Origin: Deltaproteobacteria bacterium
GTDB taxonomy: Bacteria; Desulfobacterota; Desulfarculia; Adiutricales; Adiutricaceae
Assembly: GCA_031264145.1 (NCBI GenBank)
Contig: JAISEK010000065.1
Span: forward strand, 1 to 37,748
DNA: 37,748 nucleotides
Direction: 5' to 3'
Part shown: piece after piece, positions 10,281 through 18,549 of the stretch
How positions within the stretch are numbered: position 1 is the first letter of the stretch
How the letters are laid out: every line of letters starts with the position of its first letter
Program-made: the position numbers and the translations under genes
Notes under the pieces: generated by a model
Told to the model about the DNA's origin: nothing
What the model saw: only the letters and a program-made list of their open reading frames with translations
Database searches by the model: none

Positions 10281-10357
10281 CGGGACGTGGCGCAGCCTGG
10301 TAGCGCACCTGAATGGGGTTCAGGGGGCCGCTGGTTCAAATCCAGTCGTCCCGACCA
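10281..10357 (+). tRNA. tRNA-Pro(GGG)
   Basis: The cloverleaf can be drawn by eye. The acceptor CGGGACG (10281-10287) pairs with CGTCCCG (10347-10353), followed by A and an encoded CCA. The D arm has GCGC...GCGC, the anticodon stem is CCTGA/TCAGG with loop ATGGGGT, giving anticodon GGG, and the T arm is CTGG-TTCAAAT-CCAG. It decodes CCC and CCT. The 3' 20 bases are repeated near-perfectly at 11195-11214, as at an integration site. Confidence 0.95.
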
Positions 10358-10358
10358 T
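10339..10358 (+). repeat. Direct repeat copy 1 (att-like, 3' end of tRNA-Pro)
   Basis: AATCCAGTCGTCCCGACCAT, inside the tRNA 3' end, recurs with one mismatch at 11195-11214. Tyrosine integrases commonly use tRNA 3' ends as attachment sites and leave such repeats. Confidence 0.7.
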
Positions 10359-10398
10359 CTGTCAATTTCACATGCTTTCCAATACGGACCCGGAGGCA

Positions 10399-10432
10399 AC
10401 GGGCCCCTTGACGACAAGGGGCCCGTTTTTTT
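10399..10432 (+). terminator. Rho-independent terminator after tRNA-Pro
   Basis: ACGGGCCCCTTG (10399-10410) and CAAGGGGCCCGT (10415-10426) form a perfect 12-bp stem with an ACGA loop, followed by seven Ts. It sits 42 bases after the tRNA and should end its transcript. Confidence 0.9.
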
Positions 10433-11194
10433 GCCTTCAGGCCCTTGGTGCCTGGGGCCACCCCGGTTCCTTCCCGGCGTCCCGTATACCGGGGAGAACG
10501 CCAGGTAGCCCTTGGCCTGCTATCTACCGTCGCCGGGGCCACGACGCCCAGTTCAGCCCAGGTTATGGAGGAACCAGTGCGGCAATGGCCGACCTCCACG
10601 CCAACGACCAAAATGGCCGTTGATTTTTTGAAGTTTTTCTGCCCGGCCATGGCTTGAATCTTGGCGGCCATCCTGAGCGGCCATACGCCGGTTGCCAGAG
10701 GCCTCCAACGGCCCTTCCCCAAACAAGCCCAGCCAGTGCCTTTGGACCGCATCTTCCCGGAGATGCCCAAGGGTGCCCCGCCTCCGCCGGAGGCGGCCGA
10801 GGACGCGCTGGCCCTGGGGCAATCGGGGGAAGGCCCGGTTTGGCTTCTACCGCCTGGGTGGATAAAGATGTGGCCGGCCGCCTTGCGCTGGAGGGGCCCC
10901 ATGGACCGCCACGCCCGGCAATTCTGGACCAAAAAGCGGCGGGAAACGCACCTTGCCGCGAATATCACGAAGCTCCCCGACCCGTCCGGCCTTCCCCTGG
11001 AAATCTTCCATTCGGGGCCGCAATCGGATATCATGGCCCCTGGCATTCGGAGACGCGCCAGGGGGCCTTTCTCGCTCCCGCAAAGAAGAAATGCCTTCTG
11101 GGCTCCGTGCCGGATTTTGGGGCAAGGGGGCCTGGCCCGGGCCAAAGCGTCTTGTCCTGTCTCGTCGGCAAGCGGCTTTAGCCCCTGGCAGGCG

Positions 11195-11214
11195 AATCCA
11201 GCCGTCCCGACCAT
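11195..11214 (+). repeat. Direct repeat copy 2 (att-like)
   Basis: AATCCAGCCGTCCCGACCAT matches the tRNA-Pro 3' end at 10339-10358 in 19 of 20 positions and lies in the same orientation, 85 bases before smc. Confidence 0.7.
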
Positions 11215-11298
11215 GGAGGAGGGGTCAGGGGGCCAGAGGCCCCATGGCCCCCATTCTTTATCCTCCCCTCAGCCCGGATCGGCGATTGCGGCGTTCCC

Positions 11299-14200
11299 AT
11301 GTTCCTGAAAAGACTGGAAATAGTGGGCTTCAAGTCCTTCACCGAGCGGACGGCCGTGGCCTTCAGCCCCGGCATAAGCGCCGTTGTCGGGCCCAACGGC
11401 TGCGGCAAGAGCAACATCATTGACGCCATCCGCTGGGTCATGGGCGAGCAGAGCCCCCGGCTCCTCAGGACCCGCAACATGGAGGACCTGCTCTTCAACG
11501 GCTCACTGGGCCGCTCGCAGGCCTCGGTGGCCGAGGTCACCCTCACCATGGCCAGGGAGCTGGATCAGGCCAAGGGCCAGGCCGAGATATCCGTCACCAG
11601 GCGCCTCTACCGGGGGGGCGACAGCGAGTACCTGGTCAACAGGATCCCCAGCCGGCTCAAGGACCTGGTCCGCTTCTTCATCGAGGCCGGCATGGGCACC
11701 AGGGCCTACAACATCATCGAGCAGGAGAAGGTCGGCCGCCTGGTGGACGCCCCGCCCGAGGAGAGGCGCCTCCTGATCGACGAGGCAGCCGGCATCACCC
11801 GCTTCAAGGAACAGAAGAAGGAGTCGGAGCGCCGACTGGAGCAGGCCGAGCAGAACCTGGCCACGGTGGCCACGCTCCTCTCGGAGACCGCGAGGCGCCT
11901 CTCGTCCGTCACCAGGGCGGCGGCCAAGGCGGCCCGCTGGCAGTCCCTGAGGACCGAGCTCAGGGAGCTCGAGCTCGTGCTCTCGGCCAAGCGCTTCCTG
12001 GAGTACGGCGACGGCATTTCCGGCCTCCGGGCCAGGGCCGCCGGGATGAGGGAGGCCCTGGCCCTCATGGAGGCCGACAATTCCCGGATCGAGCTGGCCG
12101 TCGACGCCCTCAGGCTCACCGAGGCCGAGCAGGGCCAGCTGCTGGAGGCCGAGCTGGGAGCCTTCCACCAGCAGAAGGCCGGCCTGGACCATATGAACAT
12201 GGAGATTGGCCACCTCGAGGCTGACCTGGAGTCAGCCTCGGGACGCCGCGAGTCGGCCCTGGACGACCTGGCCGGTCTCGACGACGAATACGGGCGCCAC
12301 CAGACGGACCTGGAGCGCCTGGAAAAGGCCGTCGGGGACCAGACCAGGGAAAGCCGCGAGGCCGAGGCCGAGCGCCAGGAGCTCAGGGAGAAGTGGCGGG
12401 TGGTCAAGTCCCAGTGCGACCTCCTGGCCGAGAGGCGCGGCCAGGCCGGGGCCCGGCTCGAGAAGGCCAGGGACCTCCTGGGCCGCCTTGGCGAGACCCT
12501 GGCCGGGGCCGAGAGCCTGGCCGAGCACCTCAAGGGCCGCCACCGCGCCCTGGGGCTGGAAAGCAACCAGGCCGACCTGACCCTGGCCGAGGCCAGGGAA
12601 CGACTGGCCTCCCGCGAGCGCTTCAAGGCCATGATCGAGGAGGATCTGGCCGGCATGAGGGAGGAAGCCGAGCGTTTCCTCGAGGAGCGCGACCTGGCCA
12701 GGCTGGAGGTCGAGGCCCAAGTCCGGCTCCTGGGGGAGGCCGAGAAGACCGTGGCCTCCCTCTCCTCCAGGCTGGACACCCTCGAGAACCTCCGGGACAG
12801 CGGCTTCGGCTGGTATCCAGACGGGGCCGTGGCCCTCCTGAAGGACCCGGATGCCAGGGGCCTGATCGGCCCGGTGGCCGAGTCCTTCGAGGTGCCCGAC
12901 GGGTACGAGGAGGCGGCCGAGGCGGCCCTGGGCGACAAGCTGGGCTGGATCCTGGTCACCGACCGCCGGGCCGGCCTGGAGGCCCTGAGGCTGGCCCGGA
13001 AAAAGGGCCTGGGCCGCTGCGGCTTCGTCTCCGGCGAGGGCCTCCGAGGCCAGGGGCTCTCCGAGGCCCTCCTGGGGCGCATCGAGCCCCGCCCGTGCCT
13101 TTCCCCCGACATGCTCGACAGCCCCAGCAGCTTCCTTACCCTGGAAGGCGACTTCCTGGGCCCAACCCTCATGGCCGGCGGGGGGCCGCCCGCCGAGGCC
13201 GCCTCCGGGCCCAAGGGAGCCCAAAAGCCGGCCAAGGCCGGGGAAAAGGGGCAGATGGGGCTACTGGCCAGGCTCAAGGAGCTGGAGGGGGTCTCCGCCC
13301 AGCTCCAGTCGGCAGAGGACGCCGCCAGTCGGCTAAACGACGAGGTGGCGGCCAAAAGGGGCACCCTCTCGCTGGCCCAGGAGGCCCTGTCCACGGCCAA
13401 CAACCGCCTGTCCGCCCTGAACGCCGACCTCAACGACGCCTCCTCCAAGATCATGGTCGCCGCCTCTGAGGTCAAGGGCCTGGCCATCCGCCGGGACTCC
13501 CTCTCCGGCGAGATAGCCCGCAACGAGTCGGAGATGGCCGCCTGCGAGGAGAAAAGGGAAGCCGCGGCCAGCGAGCGCGAGGCCCTCGCCGGCCAGGCGG
13601 GACAGCTGGAGGAAGCCTTCCAACAGGCCGTCCAGGAGGCCGAGGGCCGGAACGGGGACCTGGAGGAACTCAGGGAGCAGGGGCAGGCGGCCTCCTCCAG
13701 GGCCGACGCCATCTCCGAGCGGCTGGAGGGCACCAGGCGGGAAATGGCCAGGGTCTCCGACTGGATCGACAACCTGGAGAACCGCCGGACGGCCCTGGAG
13801 GCCCTGGCCGGGGAGCTCCTGGAGACCCAGGAGGCCCTGGCCGGGAAAATCGACGAGCTGAGGCAAGCCGTCGGCGGCGGGCCCGAGAGCCTGGCCCAGG
13901 CCGAGGAGAGGCTAAGGCTCATCCGCCAGAGGCTGGACGAGAACAGGGCCGAGCTCCTGGGGATGGAGGAGGAAGCCAAGAAAAGCCGCAAGGCCAGGGA
14001 AGAGGCGGCCTCGGGCCTTGGCGAGGTTGACAGGGAACTCCTGGAGGCCGGCTACGGACTGGAAAAAATCACCGGCAACCTGCTGAGGGACTGGCGGGTC
14101 GTGTTCATCGATCCCAATGCCCCCGCCACGGTGGGGCCAGGCCCCGGGGAAGGCCCCTGGACCGGCGTCCGCCCCGGCCCAGGTGAAGACGGCGGGACCG

Positions 14201-15108
14201 ATGGCGGTGCCTGGACGGACGACCTGGGCGCCCATGACGGGGACCAGGATGACGGGGACGCGGAAGAGGCAGCCACGGACGAGGCCCCCGGGACGCCGCC
14301 GGTCGGCGACGGGGCCCGAGAGGTGGAAGATCCAGGGCCGGACCATTCCGGCCAGACCGATGGGGAGGAGCCGGAAGGCGAGATGGCCCTGGCCCCGCCC
14401 GAGGTCCTGGACCCCAACGAGCTGGCCGCGAGGGAGCTTCCGGAGACGGCCGAGGCCACCATCCTTGGCCTGAGGGAAAAGCTGGCCGCCCTGGGCGAGG
14501 TCAACCTGGAGGCCATCAGGGAGGAGGCCGAGCTTTCCAAAAGCCACGCCTTCCACAAGACCCAGCACGACGACCTGACCGGGGCCATAGCCGACCTGAG
14601 GAACGGCATAACGCGCATAAACCAGACCTGCAGGGAGCGTTTCAGCCGGACCTTCGACCTGGCCAGCCAGAAGTTCAGGGAAATCTTCCCCGTCCTGTTC
14701 GAGGGGGGCGACGGCTGGCTCACCCTGACCGACGAGTCGGATCCCCTGGATAGCGGGGTGGAGATACACGTCCATCCCCCGGGCAAGAAGATAATGGTCA
14801 TGAGATCCCTCTCCGGGGGCGAGAAGACGCTCACCTCTCTGTGCCTCATCTTCGCCCTGTACCTGATAAAGCCCAGCCCGTTCTGCCTCTTGGACGAGGC
14901 CGACGCCCCCCTGGACGAGGCCAACATAGACAGATTCAACAGGCTCCTCAGGAATCTCTCCGGAGCCTCCCAGATCATCATGGTCACCCACAACAAACGG
15001 ACCATGCAGATCGCCGACTCCCTTTACGGCGTGACCATGGAGACGCCCGGGGTGTCCAGGCTGGTCAGCGTGAATCTTTCCGAGGCCGAGGATTTGTCCA
15101 ATGCTTGA
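11299..15108 (+). CDS. smc: Chromosome segregation ATPase SMC
   Basis: The 1269-aa condensin subunit compacts and separates replicated chromosomes, acting as a dimer with ScpA/ScpB. The N-terminal head starts at MFLKRLEIVGFKSF with Walker A GPNGCGKSNI (31-40). Long coiled coils flank a hinge at about 500-640 (DSGFGWYPDGAVALL to the GLGRCGF region). The C-terminal head has the signature LSGGEKTLTSLCLIF (about 1171) and Walker B/D-loop CLLDEADAPLDEANID (about 1195). The protein is longer than usual because residues about 936-1040, just before the C-terminal head, are a low-complexity Pro/Gly/Asp/Glu segment. A second Ala/Gly/Pro stretch lies after the hinge (about 630-650). The ATG is at the family start. 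Its stop overlaps the ftsY start by eight bases. Confidence 0.96.
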   Translation: MFLKRLEIVGFKSFTERTAVAFSPGISAVVGPNGCGKSNIIDAIRWVMGEQSPRLLRTRNMEDLLFNGSLGRSQASVAEVTLTMARELDQAKGQAEISVTRRLYRGGDSEYLVNRIPSRLKDLVRFFIEAGMGTRAYNIIEQEKVGRLVDAPPEERRLLIDEAAGITRFKEQKKESERRLEQAEQNLATVATLLSETARRLSSVTRAAAKAARWQSLRTELRELELVLSAKRFLEYGDGISGLRARAAGMREALALMEADNSRIELAVDALRLTEAEQGQLLEAELGAFHQQKAGLDHMNMEIGHLEADLESASGRRESALDDLAGLDDEYGRHQTDLERLEKAVGDQTRESREAEAERQELREKWRVVKSQCDLLAERRGQAGARLEKARDLLGRLGETLAGAESLAEHLKGRHRALGLESNQADLTLAEARERLASRERFKAMIEEDLAGMREEAERFLEERDLARLEVEAQVRLLGEAEKTVASLSSRLDTLENLRDSGFGWYPDGAVALLKDPDARGLIGPVAESFEVPDGYEEAAEAALGDKLGWILVTDRRAGLEALRLARKKGLGRCGFVSGEGLRGQGLSEALLGRIEPRPCLSPDMLDSPSSFLTLEGDFLGPTLMAGGGPPAEAASGPKGAQKPAKAGEKGQMGLLARLKELEGVSAQLQSAEDAASRLNDEVAAKRGTLSLAQEALSTANNRLSALNADLNDASSKIMVAASEVKGLAIRRDSLSGEIARNESEMAACEEKREAAASEREALAGQAGQLEEAFQQAVQEAEGRNGDLEELREQGQAASSRADAISERLEGTRREMARVSDWIDNLENRRTALEALAGELLETQEALAGKIDELRQAVGGGPESLAQAEERLRLIRQRLDENRAELLGMEEEAKKSRKAREEAASGLGEVDRELLEAGYGLEKITGNLLRDWRVVFIDPNAPATVGPGPGEGPWTGVRPGPGEDGGTDGGAWTDDLGAHDGDQDDGDAEEAATDEAPGTPPVGDGAREVEDPGPDHSGQTDGEEPEGEMALAPPEVLDPNELAARELPETAEATILGLREKLAALGEVNLEAIREEAELSKSHAFHKTQHDDLTGAIADLRNGITRINQTCRERFSRTFDLASQKFREIFPVLFEGGDGWLTLTDESDPLDSGVEIHVHPPGKKIMVMRSLSGGEKTLTSLCLIFALYLIKPSPFCLLDEADAPLDEANIDRFNRLLRNLSGASQIIMVTHNKRTMQIADSLYGVTMETPGVSRLVSVNLSEAEDLSNA

Positions 15109-16549
15109 TTTTTTCAGCCGGAAAAAGAGAGACCCACAGGATTCCGAGCAGGCCCAGGCACCTGGGCATGAAGGGCCCCAGGCCGGGGAAGCCATCCAGG
15201 AGGAGCCCCAGGCGTCCCCCGATGTCCCAGGCGACGGGGCCTCCCCTGCCCCGCCCCAGGATGGCCCCATGCCCGCGGCGGAGGAGGCCGGCGGGGAAGA
15301 CGCCCCCCCCTCCGGCCCTGAGGCTGAAAAGAGGAAAGGCTGGTTTGGACGCCTGAGGGAAAAGTTTTCCCCCGGGCCGCCGGAAGACGCCCCGGCCGGG
15401 ACAGGCGAGGCGAAGGCCGGGGACCCATTGCCGGCAGCAGCCTCCCAGGGCGAGGATCCGGCCCAGGCCGGCGAGTCCCCAGTGGAAACCGGCCCTGCCG
15501 GGGACCAGCCCCCTGACTTGCCCGGGACCGCGCTGGCGTCAGGCGCAGGGCCAGACTTGCCGGCCGCCACGGGCCAGTCCGGAGAGACGCCCCCAGGGGA
15601 CGCCCTGGACGAGAAGGGCGAGGCCCCAGAGAGGAAGGTGGGCTGGTTCGGGCGCCTCAAGCAGAAGCTGGCCTCGACCAGGGACAAGCTGGCCGGCCGG
15701 CTGGAGACCGTCCTCTCGGCCACCAGGACAATCGACGACGACGTCTTGGACGAGCTGGAGGAGATTCTCATCACCTCCGATCTTGGCGTCAAGACCAGCA
15801 CCGACATCCTGAGCAAGATAAGGGGCCAGGTGGCCAGAAAGGAACTCAATGACGTGGAGGCCCTGAAGGCGTCCATAAGGACCCGCATCTCCGAGATGGT
15901 CATGGCTCAGGCCATGCCCCCCGTTGACGCCAAGCCCTTCGTCACCCTGGTGGTCGGGGTCAACGGGGTGGGCAAGACGACCACCATCGCCAAGCTGGCC
16001 CGCATCCACCAGAACGAGGGCCGGAAGGTCATCCTGGCCGCCGGGGACACCTTCCGGGCGGCTGCGGTGGAACAGCTGTCCATCTGGGCCCAGAGGCTCG
16101 GTGTGCCCATAATCTCCCAGCCCACGGGGGCCGACGCCTCGGCCGTGGTCTTCGACGCGCTCACGGCGGCCAAGGCCAGGGGCGCGGACGTCGTCCTCAT
16201 CGACACGGCAGGGAGGCTGCACACCAAGACCAACCTCATGGACGAGCTCAAGAAGATCCGGAGGGTGGCCGCCAAGGCCATCGACGGCGCCCCGCACGAG
16301 ACCATCCTGGTCCTGGACGCCAACACGGGCCAGAACGCGGCCAGCCAGGCCAAGATCTTCAACGAGTCCATCGGCGTCGACTCGCTCATAGTCACCAAGC
16401 TCGACGGCACCTCCAAGGGGGGGGTCATCGTCTCCATAATCAACGAGGAGAGGCTCCCGATAAAATACATAGGGATCGGCGAGACCTTCGAGGACCTGCG
16501 TCCCTTCGAGCCGGAGGCCTTCGTCGAGGCCATCATGGGCCCAAGGTGA
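15101..16549 (+). CDS. ftsY: Signal recognition particle receptor FtsY
   Basis: The 482-aa GTPase docks ribosome-SRP complexes at the membrane. The N-terminal 175 residues are acidic, Pro/Ala/Gly-rich and disordered (A domain). The conserved NG domains follow: N domain from GWFGRLKQKLASTRDKL (181-197), G1 GVNGVGKTTTIAKLA (about 286), the insertion-box region with ILAAGDTFRAAAVEQL, G3 DTAGRLHTKTNLMDELKK (about 368), and G4 TKLDGTSKGG (about 431). The GWFGRL motif occurs twice (80-85 and 181-186), and the extreme N-terminus, MLDFFSRKKR, is also aromatic and basic; these may be several membrane-contact points. It overlaps smc and is followed one base later by a kinase gene, so the three are probably co-transcribed. 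Confidence 0.96.
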   Translation: MLDFFSRKKRDPQDSEQAQAPGHEGPQAGEAIQEEPQASPDVPGDGASPAPPQDGPMPAAEEAGGEDAPPSGPEAEKRKGWFGRLREKFSPGPPEDAPAGTGEAKAGDPLPAAASQGEDPAQAGESPVETGPAGDQPPDLPGTALASGAGPDLPAATGQSGETPPGDALDEKGEAPERKVGWFGRLKQKLASTRDKLAGRLETVLSATRTIDDDVLDELEEILITSDLGVKTSTDILSKIRGQVARKELNDVEALKASIRTRISEMVMAQAMPPVDAKPFVTLVVGVNGVGKTTTIAKLARIHQNEGRKVILAAGDTFRAAAVEQLSIWAQRLGVPIISQPTGADASAVVFDALTAAKARGADVVLIDTAGRLHTKTNLMDELKKIRRVAAKAIDGAPHETILVLDANTGQNAASQAKIFNESIGVDSLIVTKLDGTSKGGVIVSIINEERLPIKYIGIGETFEDLRPFEPEAFVEAIMGPR

Positions 16550-16550
16550 C

Positions 16551-18155
16551 ATGCCCAGGCCAAAGACCATGGGCCACGGGCATCCAAGCCTGCGCCTGCT
16601 GCTTCTCCTGGTCAACCTGGTCATCCTGGCCATCCCCATCTCCGGCCTTTACCTGTTCAGGATTTACGAGAACGAGCTCGTCCGCCAGACGGAAAGCGAG
16701 CTGATCAGCCAGGCGGCCATCCTGGCGGCCATGTTCCGCCGCGAGGTGGTCGCCATCGGCGGTCCAGGCTACGGCCTGGCCCACTGGACCAGCCCATTCG
16801 GGTCCGAGTCGGATCTGAGGATTGTCCCCACCCTCCTTGACCGCTCCAGCTCTCCCATCCACGGCGACCCCTTCGCCCCCTCCGCCTCCAGCCGGCAGCC
16901 GGACCATACGGCCCTCACGGCGGCCAGGAGCCTGGCCCCGGTCATCCAGGAGGCCGCCCTGACCACCCTCTCGACCGCGGTCATCCTGGACTTTCACGGC
17001 CTGATGGTCAGCCCTGGGCGGGGCCAGGGCCTCTCCATGGAGCGGAACCCCGAGGTGGCCCAGGCCCTGGAGGGGCACTACTCGAGCCTCCTCAGGGCCA
17101 GGACGGTCTCCGGGTCCACCAGCCTGGCCTCGGCCAGCCGGGACACCCCCTACCGGGTATTCGTGGCCATGCCGGTCTTCAACGGCCGAAGGCTGGCCGG
17201 CGTCGTCTGCCTCTCCAGGACCCCCAGGGAACTGGCCAAGGCCCTCTACCAGGAGCGCTGGAATCTCACGCTGGCCGGTGCCCTGATCCTGGCGCTCATG
17301 GTCTTCGTCAGCCTCCTGGCCTCGCTTCTGATCATAGGCCCGGTCAAGAGGCTGGCCCGCGAGGCCGGCCTGGCGGCCGACGATCCAGGCCAGGCCGTGG
17401 GGCAGAGGGGCAAGGGCGATCTGGTCGTCGTCCGTGAGGTGGCCGAGCTCAGGGCCAGCGTCAGCGACATGGCCGAGCGGCTGACCAGACGCTCCGACTA
17501 CCTCAAGGCCTTCGCCTCCGGGGTCTCCCACGAGTTCAAGACGCCCCTGGCGGCCATAAAGGGGGCCATGGAGCTCATCGGCGAGCACGGCCAGGACATG
17601 GCGCCCGTGACCTTCCAGAAGTTCGCCGACAACATCCGCCAGGACCTCGACCGCCTCGAGCGCCTGGTCGGCCGGCTCCTGGCCCTGGCCAGGGCCGAGG
17701 CCATCAGGCCAACGGGCGGGGAAAGGACCGAGGCCAGGGGCCTGGTCCTGGCCCTCTCGGGGCGGCTCTCCTCCCTCCACCAGGGCTTCTCCGTCCGCCT
17801 CCTGCCCGGCCCCGACAGCCTGGACCTGGCCATCGACCGCGACGTCCTGGAGACTGTCCTCCTGAACCTCCTAGACAACAGCCGCGAGAACGGGGCCAAC
17901 GAGGCCGAGATAGCCCTTTCCTCCGAGGGCGGCCTGGGACTCTTGACCGTCCAGGACGATGGCCCGGGCATCAGGCCAGGCGACGAGGAGAAAATCTTCA
18001 GCCCCTTCCACACCAGCCGCAAGCACCAGGGCGGCACCGGCCTGGGGCTCAGCCTGGCCCGGACCCTCCTGGCCCCCTACCTGGGCGAGCTGTCCCTCCT
18101 GGGCCCCCCGGCCGTCTTCCGTCTCAGCGCCCCGCTGGCCAAGGACCTGCCCTAG
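16551..18155 (+). CDS. Membrane sensor histidine kinase, CreC-like layout
   Basis: A 534-aa kinase. Helix 1 is at residues 14-36, a periplasmic region of about 200 residues ends in a Cache-like stretch (YRVFVAMPVFNGRRLAGVVC), helix 2 is at 239-262, followed by a HAMP-like linker. The phosphoacceptor motif is SGVSHEFKTPLAAIKG with H327. The ATPase domain has LLNLLDNSRENG, DDGPGIRPGD, IFSPFHTSR and GGTGLGLSLAR. No response regulator is adjacent, so it is an orphan here. The ATG comes one base after the ftsY stop without its own clear ribosome binding site, implying coupling. The last codon TAG uses the TA target of the degraded IS630 insertion plus its first base, so the natural end could once have differed. 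The protein ends at a normal place for the fold. Confidence 0.88.
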   Translation: MPRPKTMGHGHPSLRLLLLLVNLVILAIPISGLYLFRIYENELVRQTESELISQAAILAAMFRREVVAIGGPGYGLAHWTSPFGSESDLRIVPTLLDRSSSPIHGDPFAPSASSRQPDHTALTAARSLAPVIQEAALTTLSTAVILDFHGLMVSPGRGQGLSMERNPEVAQALEGHYSSLLRARTVSGSTSLASASRDTPYRVFVAMPVFNGRRLAGVVCLSRTPRELAKALYQERWNLTLAGALILALMVFVSLLASLLIIGPVKRLAREAGLAADDPGQAVGQRGKGDLVVVREVAELRASVSDMAERLTRRSDYLKAFASGVSHEFKTPLAAIKGAMELIGEHGQDMAPVTFQKFADNIRQDLDRLERLVGRLLALARAEAIRPTGGERTEARGLVLALSGRLSSLHQGFSVRLLPGPDSLDLAIDRDVLETVLLNLLDNSRENGANEAEIALSSEGGLGLLTVQDDGPGIRPGDEEKIFSPFHTSRKHQGGTGLGLSLARTLLAPYLGELSLLGPPAVFRLSAPLAKDLP

Positions 18156-18549
18156 CGCCTTGTTTTTCCCCAGAATGCCGGATAAAGACGCCCCAATTTG
18201 CCCCTGGGGCATCCTGCGTGGACCGCCGTTTGCGCGAGGGAAGCGATTGCCCCTGTCGCCCTGCCAGGCGCGTTCCTCACGTCCGGGCGCGCCCATGTCC
18301 CCAACCCGACGCCCAGGCGCTGGCCTTGGGAACGCCTGGCCCCATTTCGGCCATGTCCGGCCGGCTCCCATGTTTCCGGGCGTAACGGACTTCCAGGCGT
18401 CTGGCCAGACGACGGGCCTCTTCCGTCCCAAGGGATCCGCGAGGCGGGACTGACGCGCGCGTGTTCAAACCGTCTCTGGCCGACACGGCCCTGCCCGCGC
18501 CAGGATGCCGCTGTCCAGGACCGTTTTTATGAAAGAGGCCCAGCCAGCG
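18155..18549 (-). pseudogene. Old degraded IS630 transposase fragment (3' half)
   Basis: Read on the minus strand, this aligns without large gaps to bases about 590-985 of the window. EEARRLARRLEVRYARKHG corresponds to DARRLARRLEIHYTPKHG, and the nucleotide match runs through DMAE, GDM and AWQ to the shared terminal bases next to TA. The frame is broken more than once and the catalytic Glu region (AEIELS in the other copy) reads AEMGPG. Most differences replace A or T with G or C. The 5' half is missing: homology stops at TGGCTGGGCCTC, where a perfect inverted repeat begins. It is a dead relic; the right end inserted at the stop codon of the upstream kinase. Confidence 0.8.

Follow-up and report, generated by a model that had tools for sequence, protein, structure and literature searches.

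When a tyrosine integrase inserts an element at the 3′ end of a tRNA gene, sequence from attP makes the gene whole again and the host's own end is displaced (PMC4383910). The T loop is a known crossover subsite of tRNA genes, and the integrase need not be carried by the element itself (PMC4383910). Here, we analyzed a 37,748-nt stretch of DNA, called the window, in which a tRNA-Pro(GGG) gene lies upstream of smc. Like the Islander tRNA-targeted islands (PMC4383910), the locus has an intact tRNA and, further downstream in the same orientation, a displaced 3′ fragment, with foreign DNA between the two. The repeat edge likewise falls in the T-loop/junction subsite, and the site is empty in relatives. 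Unlike those islands, the insert at tRNA-Pro is only 0.86 kb long and holds no integrase, and it would fail Islander's integrase and 2-kb length filters. We classify it as a remnant rather than an intact tRNA-targeted element because there is no integrase gene inside.

A second comparison is offered by the IMG/VR prophage contig IMGVR_UViG_2521172634_000003, which contains a full tRNA-Pro(GGG) with an adjoining integrase and, at another place, a further copy of the tRNA end. This contig shows that the end of tRNA-Pro(GGG) serves as an att site. Its tRNA species is that of our locus, and it too has the 19-bp tRNA end twice. However, the contig is 50 kb long with phage genes and an integrase, and its repeat is at least 44 bp.

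The window comes from a Deltaproteobacteria MAG that belongs to the Candidatus Adiutrix lineage. The SMC protein of the window finds its best matches in MAGs labelled Deltaproteobacteria, and a Candidatus Adiutrix MAG is more distant. These are termite-gut bacteria. We consider it likely that the locus is the scar of a tyrosine-integrase element at tRNA-Pro(GGG) that was later stripped of its integrase and cargo. The integration scar is clean and well supported, but ordinary. It records an earlier integration at tRNA-Pro(GGG) in the Candidatus Adiutrix lineage and belongs to a kind of scar that standard island finders skip, because their filters demand an integrase and a length of 2 kb or more.

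The direct repeat at tRNA-Pro(GGG)

ARAGORN and Rfam identify a single tRNA in the window, tRNA-Pro(GGG), which is identical to the tRNA in several relatives. The features of the locus are as follows.

10281..10357, plus strand: intact tRNA-Pro(GGG); from 10339, in the T loop, to its 3′ end the gene is putatively element-derived, as attL core
10339..10358, plus strand: direct repeat copy 1, putative att core inside the restored tRNA gene
10359..11194, no strand assigned: inserted DNA of 836 bp, probable element remnant, with no coding signal and no homologue found
10398..10427, plus strand: strong intrinsic terminator now serving the tRNA, with perfect 13-bp arms and a run of seven T; not the genus design
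11195..11214, plus strand: direct repeat copy 2, putative displaced original tRNA 3′ end and attR core, with one T-to-C change
about 11222..11260 (hairpin about 11222-11253), plus strand: probable ancestral tRNA-Pro terminator beside copy 2, with a 1x1 internal loop and a degraded T run
11299..15108, plus strand: smc, the downstream neighbour, which adjoins tRNA-Pro in many relatives

Copy 1, AATCCAGTCGTCCCGACCAT, consists of the final 19 bases of the tRNA and the next base, and thus spans the T loop through the tRNA 3′ end plus 1 nt. Copy 2, AATCCAGCCGTCCCGACCAT, lies on the same strand with 19/20 bases identical, separated from copy 1 by the single T-to-C difference and by a start-to-start distance of 856 bp. 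The initial annotation had reported this recurrence with one mismatch, and the 20-bp direct repeat is real. Within the whole 4.0-Mb genome, copies 1 and 2 are the only sites with two or fewer mismatches to the 20-mer, and a reversed control pattern gave zero sites. All 37 tRNAs found in the genome were also surveyed for a recurrence of the terminal 18 bases up to 10 kb downstream, as far as the contigs allow. A same-strand downstream repeat was found for two of them, tRNA-Pro(GGG) and tRNA-Arg(CCT), and the opposite-strand and upstream controls of the survey yielded zero repeats.

With an assembly in 198 contigs, a chance repeat or an assembly artefact has to be considered. However, an equally good same-strand match within the tRNA-smc interval has a chance expectation of about 5e-8, the orientation and upstream controls are without matches, and the repeat lies mid-contig. 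Furthermore, a 20-bp repeat is too short to mislead an assembler of usual word sizes. We regard this explanation as close to negligible.

Copy 2 could also be the surviving end of a tandem tRNA-Pro gene that has decayed, as tandem tRNA copies occur in general and one relative (G034) has a second intact tRNA-Pro(GGG) elsewhere. Yet the 70 nt before copy 2 align to the 5′ part of the tRNA with a score of 6.5, against 6.9 in shuffles (p 0.58), while the next 20 nt are 95% identical, which is a sharp edge and not decay. The initial annotation had named such a decayed gene as grounds for abandoning its reading. As far as sequence can tell, the decayed gene is refuted, and we consider it extremely improbable.

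Relatives and the probable ancestral junction

Next to smc on one contig, tRNA-Pro was found in 15 relatives, with a tRNA-smc interval of 138-1695 nt; the window has 942 nt. In all relatives for which the tRNA-Pro-smc neighbourhood was read, the tRNA-Pro(GGG) end occurs once, and a second copy was not detected in the interval at up to five mismatches. A family-wide genome search found an extra partial tRNA-Pro(GGG) copy only in this genome, the other matches being Pro tRNA places. The initial annotation had proposed this comparison and had counted both repeats in relatives without the element as evidence to the contrary; none of the relatives read has them, and an insertion is supported. Spacer length alone is not evidence, because four relatives have long, gene-poor tRNA-smc spacers without a repeat. 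The suggestion of an active hotspot upstream of smc, in contrast, was not supported. The relatives have no islands at this site, the 15 relatives lack a second tRNA end, and no Pfam family was matched by the longest ORFs in the three most extended tRNA-smc intervals.

Several relatives have further features at or near their tRNA-Pro genes. Spacers of 1.6-1.7 kb between tRNA-Pro and smc, with no recognisable protein families or second tRNA end, are found in G010, G028 and G008 (L071, L076, L077). Two tRNA-Pro(GGG) genes identical over 77 bases lie on different contigs of G034 (L073, L074), one of them beside smc and each with its own terminator design. The genome G040, of the same order, has three dispersed partial tRNA-Pro(GGG) copies beside different genes (L254:4041, L255:4062, L257:4091); the terminator behind each of them is almost that of the intact gene (L256). 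The contigs of these fragments gave no integrase match, and the fragments were left out of the evidence.

A closely spaced hairpin terminator lies 3′ of tRNA-Pro in most relatives. For four of the six same-genus relatives (G001, G003, G004, G006), tRNA-Pro is directly followed by one terminator design, with an AGGGGTC-type outer stem, a 1x1 internal loop and a short GC inner stem. This design is present in the window after copy 2, with the 1x1 internal loop shared, and not after the tRNA itself. The degraded terminator-like hairpin at this position had been overlooked in the initial annotation. The terminator that follows copy 1 begins 40 nt after the tRNA and differs from the genus-design hairpin. 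Aligned with the terminators of these four relatives, the copy-2 flank has a summed local score of 69, above all 500 dinucleotide shuffles (mean 31.8, maximum 57), and the copy-1 flank has a score of 40 (p 0.04) in the same test. Because the genus design follows copy 2 and not the tRNA, the copy-2 side is most likely the ancestral junction, with the sequence from 11195 onward as the old host end and 856 bp inserted. We infer that the terminator at 10398-10427 arrived with the insert. A terminator beyond the second repeat can thus still mark the host's original copy after the element itself is lost.

One relative counts against the insertion reading: G005, the nearest by the N-terminus of SMC, has neither terminator type. 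The contig of another relative (G002) ends at the tRNA-Pro site. The terminator of G005 (L065) lies ~110 nt after tRNA-Pro, behind an AT-rich inverted repeat, unlike its congeners. This flank is possibly another small insertion at the same spot.

The terminators also bear on recombination with a related strain, in which a donor tRNA 3′ end, terminator and smc would have replaced the smc-proximal part, leaving copy 2 foreign and copy 1 with its spacer resident. Long gene-poor tRNA-smc spacers are present in the family, and the copy-2 terminator resembles those of genus relatives, both in favour of such an exchange. However, the illegitimate joint must then fall exactly in the T loop, and a terminator type found in 4/6 congeners is most simply resident. 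We judge strain recombination unlikely.

Integration at the tRNA 3′ end accounts for all of these facts, including the terminator swap. A tRNA-targeting tyrosine-integrase element (a prophage, island or satellite) would have recombined within the T-loop/acceptor part of tRNA-Pro(GGG). Its attP would have brought a copy of the tRNA 3′ end, restoring the tRNA gene as copy 1 with a new terminator, and the host 3′ end with its own terminator would have been pushed downstream, where it now adjoins smc as copy 2. Internal deletion, decay or both may then have removed the integrase and cargo and left 836 bp of non-coding DNA between the att cores. The initial annotation had read the locus as a tyrosine-integrase footprint. 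Its claim of an element footprint at the tRNA 3′ end is supported by the single ends in relatives, by the probable ancestral terminator after copy 2 and by the lack of a decayed tRNA gene before copy 2. That a tyrosine integrase was the agent, and that most of the element was deleted, we infer.

DNA between the repeats

We count the insertion as 856 bp when copy 2 is included (10359-11214) and as 836 bp between the att cores (10359-11194). The inserted DNA has a GC content of 64%, and the window one of 62%. Within the 836 bp, no frame shows the codon bias seen in the adjacent genes. The longest ORFs are 215 aa on the plus strand and 292 aa on the minus strand; codon scores are negative for both, and their GC is flat across codon positions. 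We rejected a decayed gene on these grounds. The longest open stretch gave p 0.03 in a Markov-shuffle test, which we attribute to GC-rich sequence. No integrase or other mobile-element gene was detected between the repeats, and the six-frame translations had no match in Pfam or PHROGs except one PHROG at E 0.61. These results agree with the initial annotation, which had found nothing recognisable here except the terminator: there is no recognisable gene, and the terminator is real. The translated search that it proposed likewise returned no integrase or phage-satellite match.

Related DNA was sought at several levels. The host's own genome, 37 family genomes and plasmids gave only short GC-rich matches (<70 nt), 63 class genomes gave none at E 1e-6, and phages gave one 37-nt match and nothing longer. 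Searches of viral contigs with the predicted circular attP junction and the insert ORFs found none. Because no coding signal, protein-family match or related DNA was found, the 836-bp insert is best seen as the remnant of a deleted or decayed element.

Alternatively, the insert could be a complete, very small non-coding satellite that relies on the integrase of another element in the same cell, acting in trans. The att-like ends are clean, any of the 10 Phage_integrase matches in the genome could provide the function in trans, and elements need not carry their own integrase (PMC4383910). However, the unit is single-copy, and no relative of it was found in the 63 class genomes, in phages, in plasmids or, by junction and ORF searches, in viral contigs. 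Neither PHROG/Pfam matches to satellite genes nor related copies were found. Such a satellite is very unlikely, and it is highly improbable that the 856 bp form a complete integrative element, free of protein genes and moved by an integrase in trans, although if true this unit would rank among the smallest tRNA-integrating elements. The initial annotation had left the choice between internal deletion and a very small satellite; deletion or decay fits better because nothing functional or homologous was found in the insert, and the satellite is without positive support.

An integrase-bearing stretch in the same genome

The second tRNA with a downstream repeat in our survey, tRNA-Arg(CCT), borders a 7.1-kb stretch between 47-bp exact repeats (G000:C150, about 11321-18428). 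A Phage_integrase gene of 342 aa adjoins the tRNA in this stretch, which is what an integrative element looks like in this genome. As at tRNA-Pro, a same-strand copy of the tRNA 3′ end lies downstream. The two differ in that the tRNA-Arg repeat extends over 47 bp to the anticodon region, compared with 20 bp at tRNA-Pro, and in that the 7.1-kb stretch carries an integrase. Both the short repeat and the missing integrase at tRNA-Pro speak against an integrated element there. The stretch (G000:C150:8431-22505 region; about L235:2890-9997) also encodes a metallo-beta-lactamase-fold protein that is RNase J/CASP-like, as well as a Gp49-like (DUF891, RelE/HigB-type) toxin-like protein.
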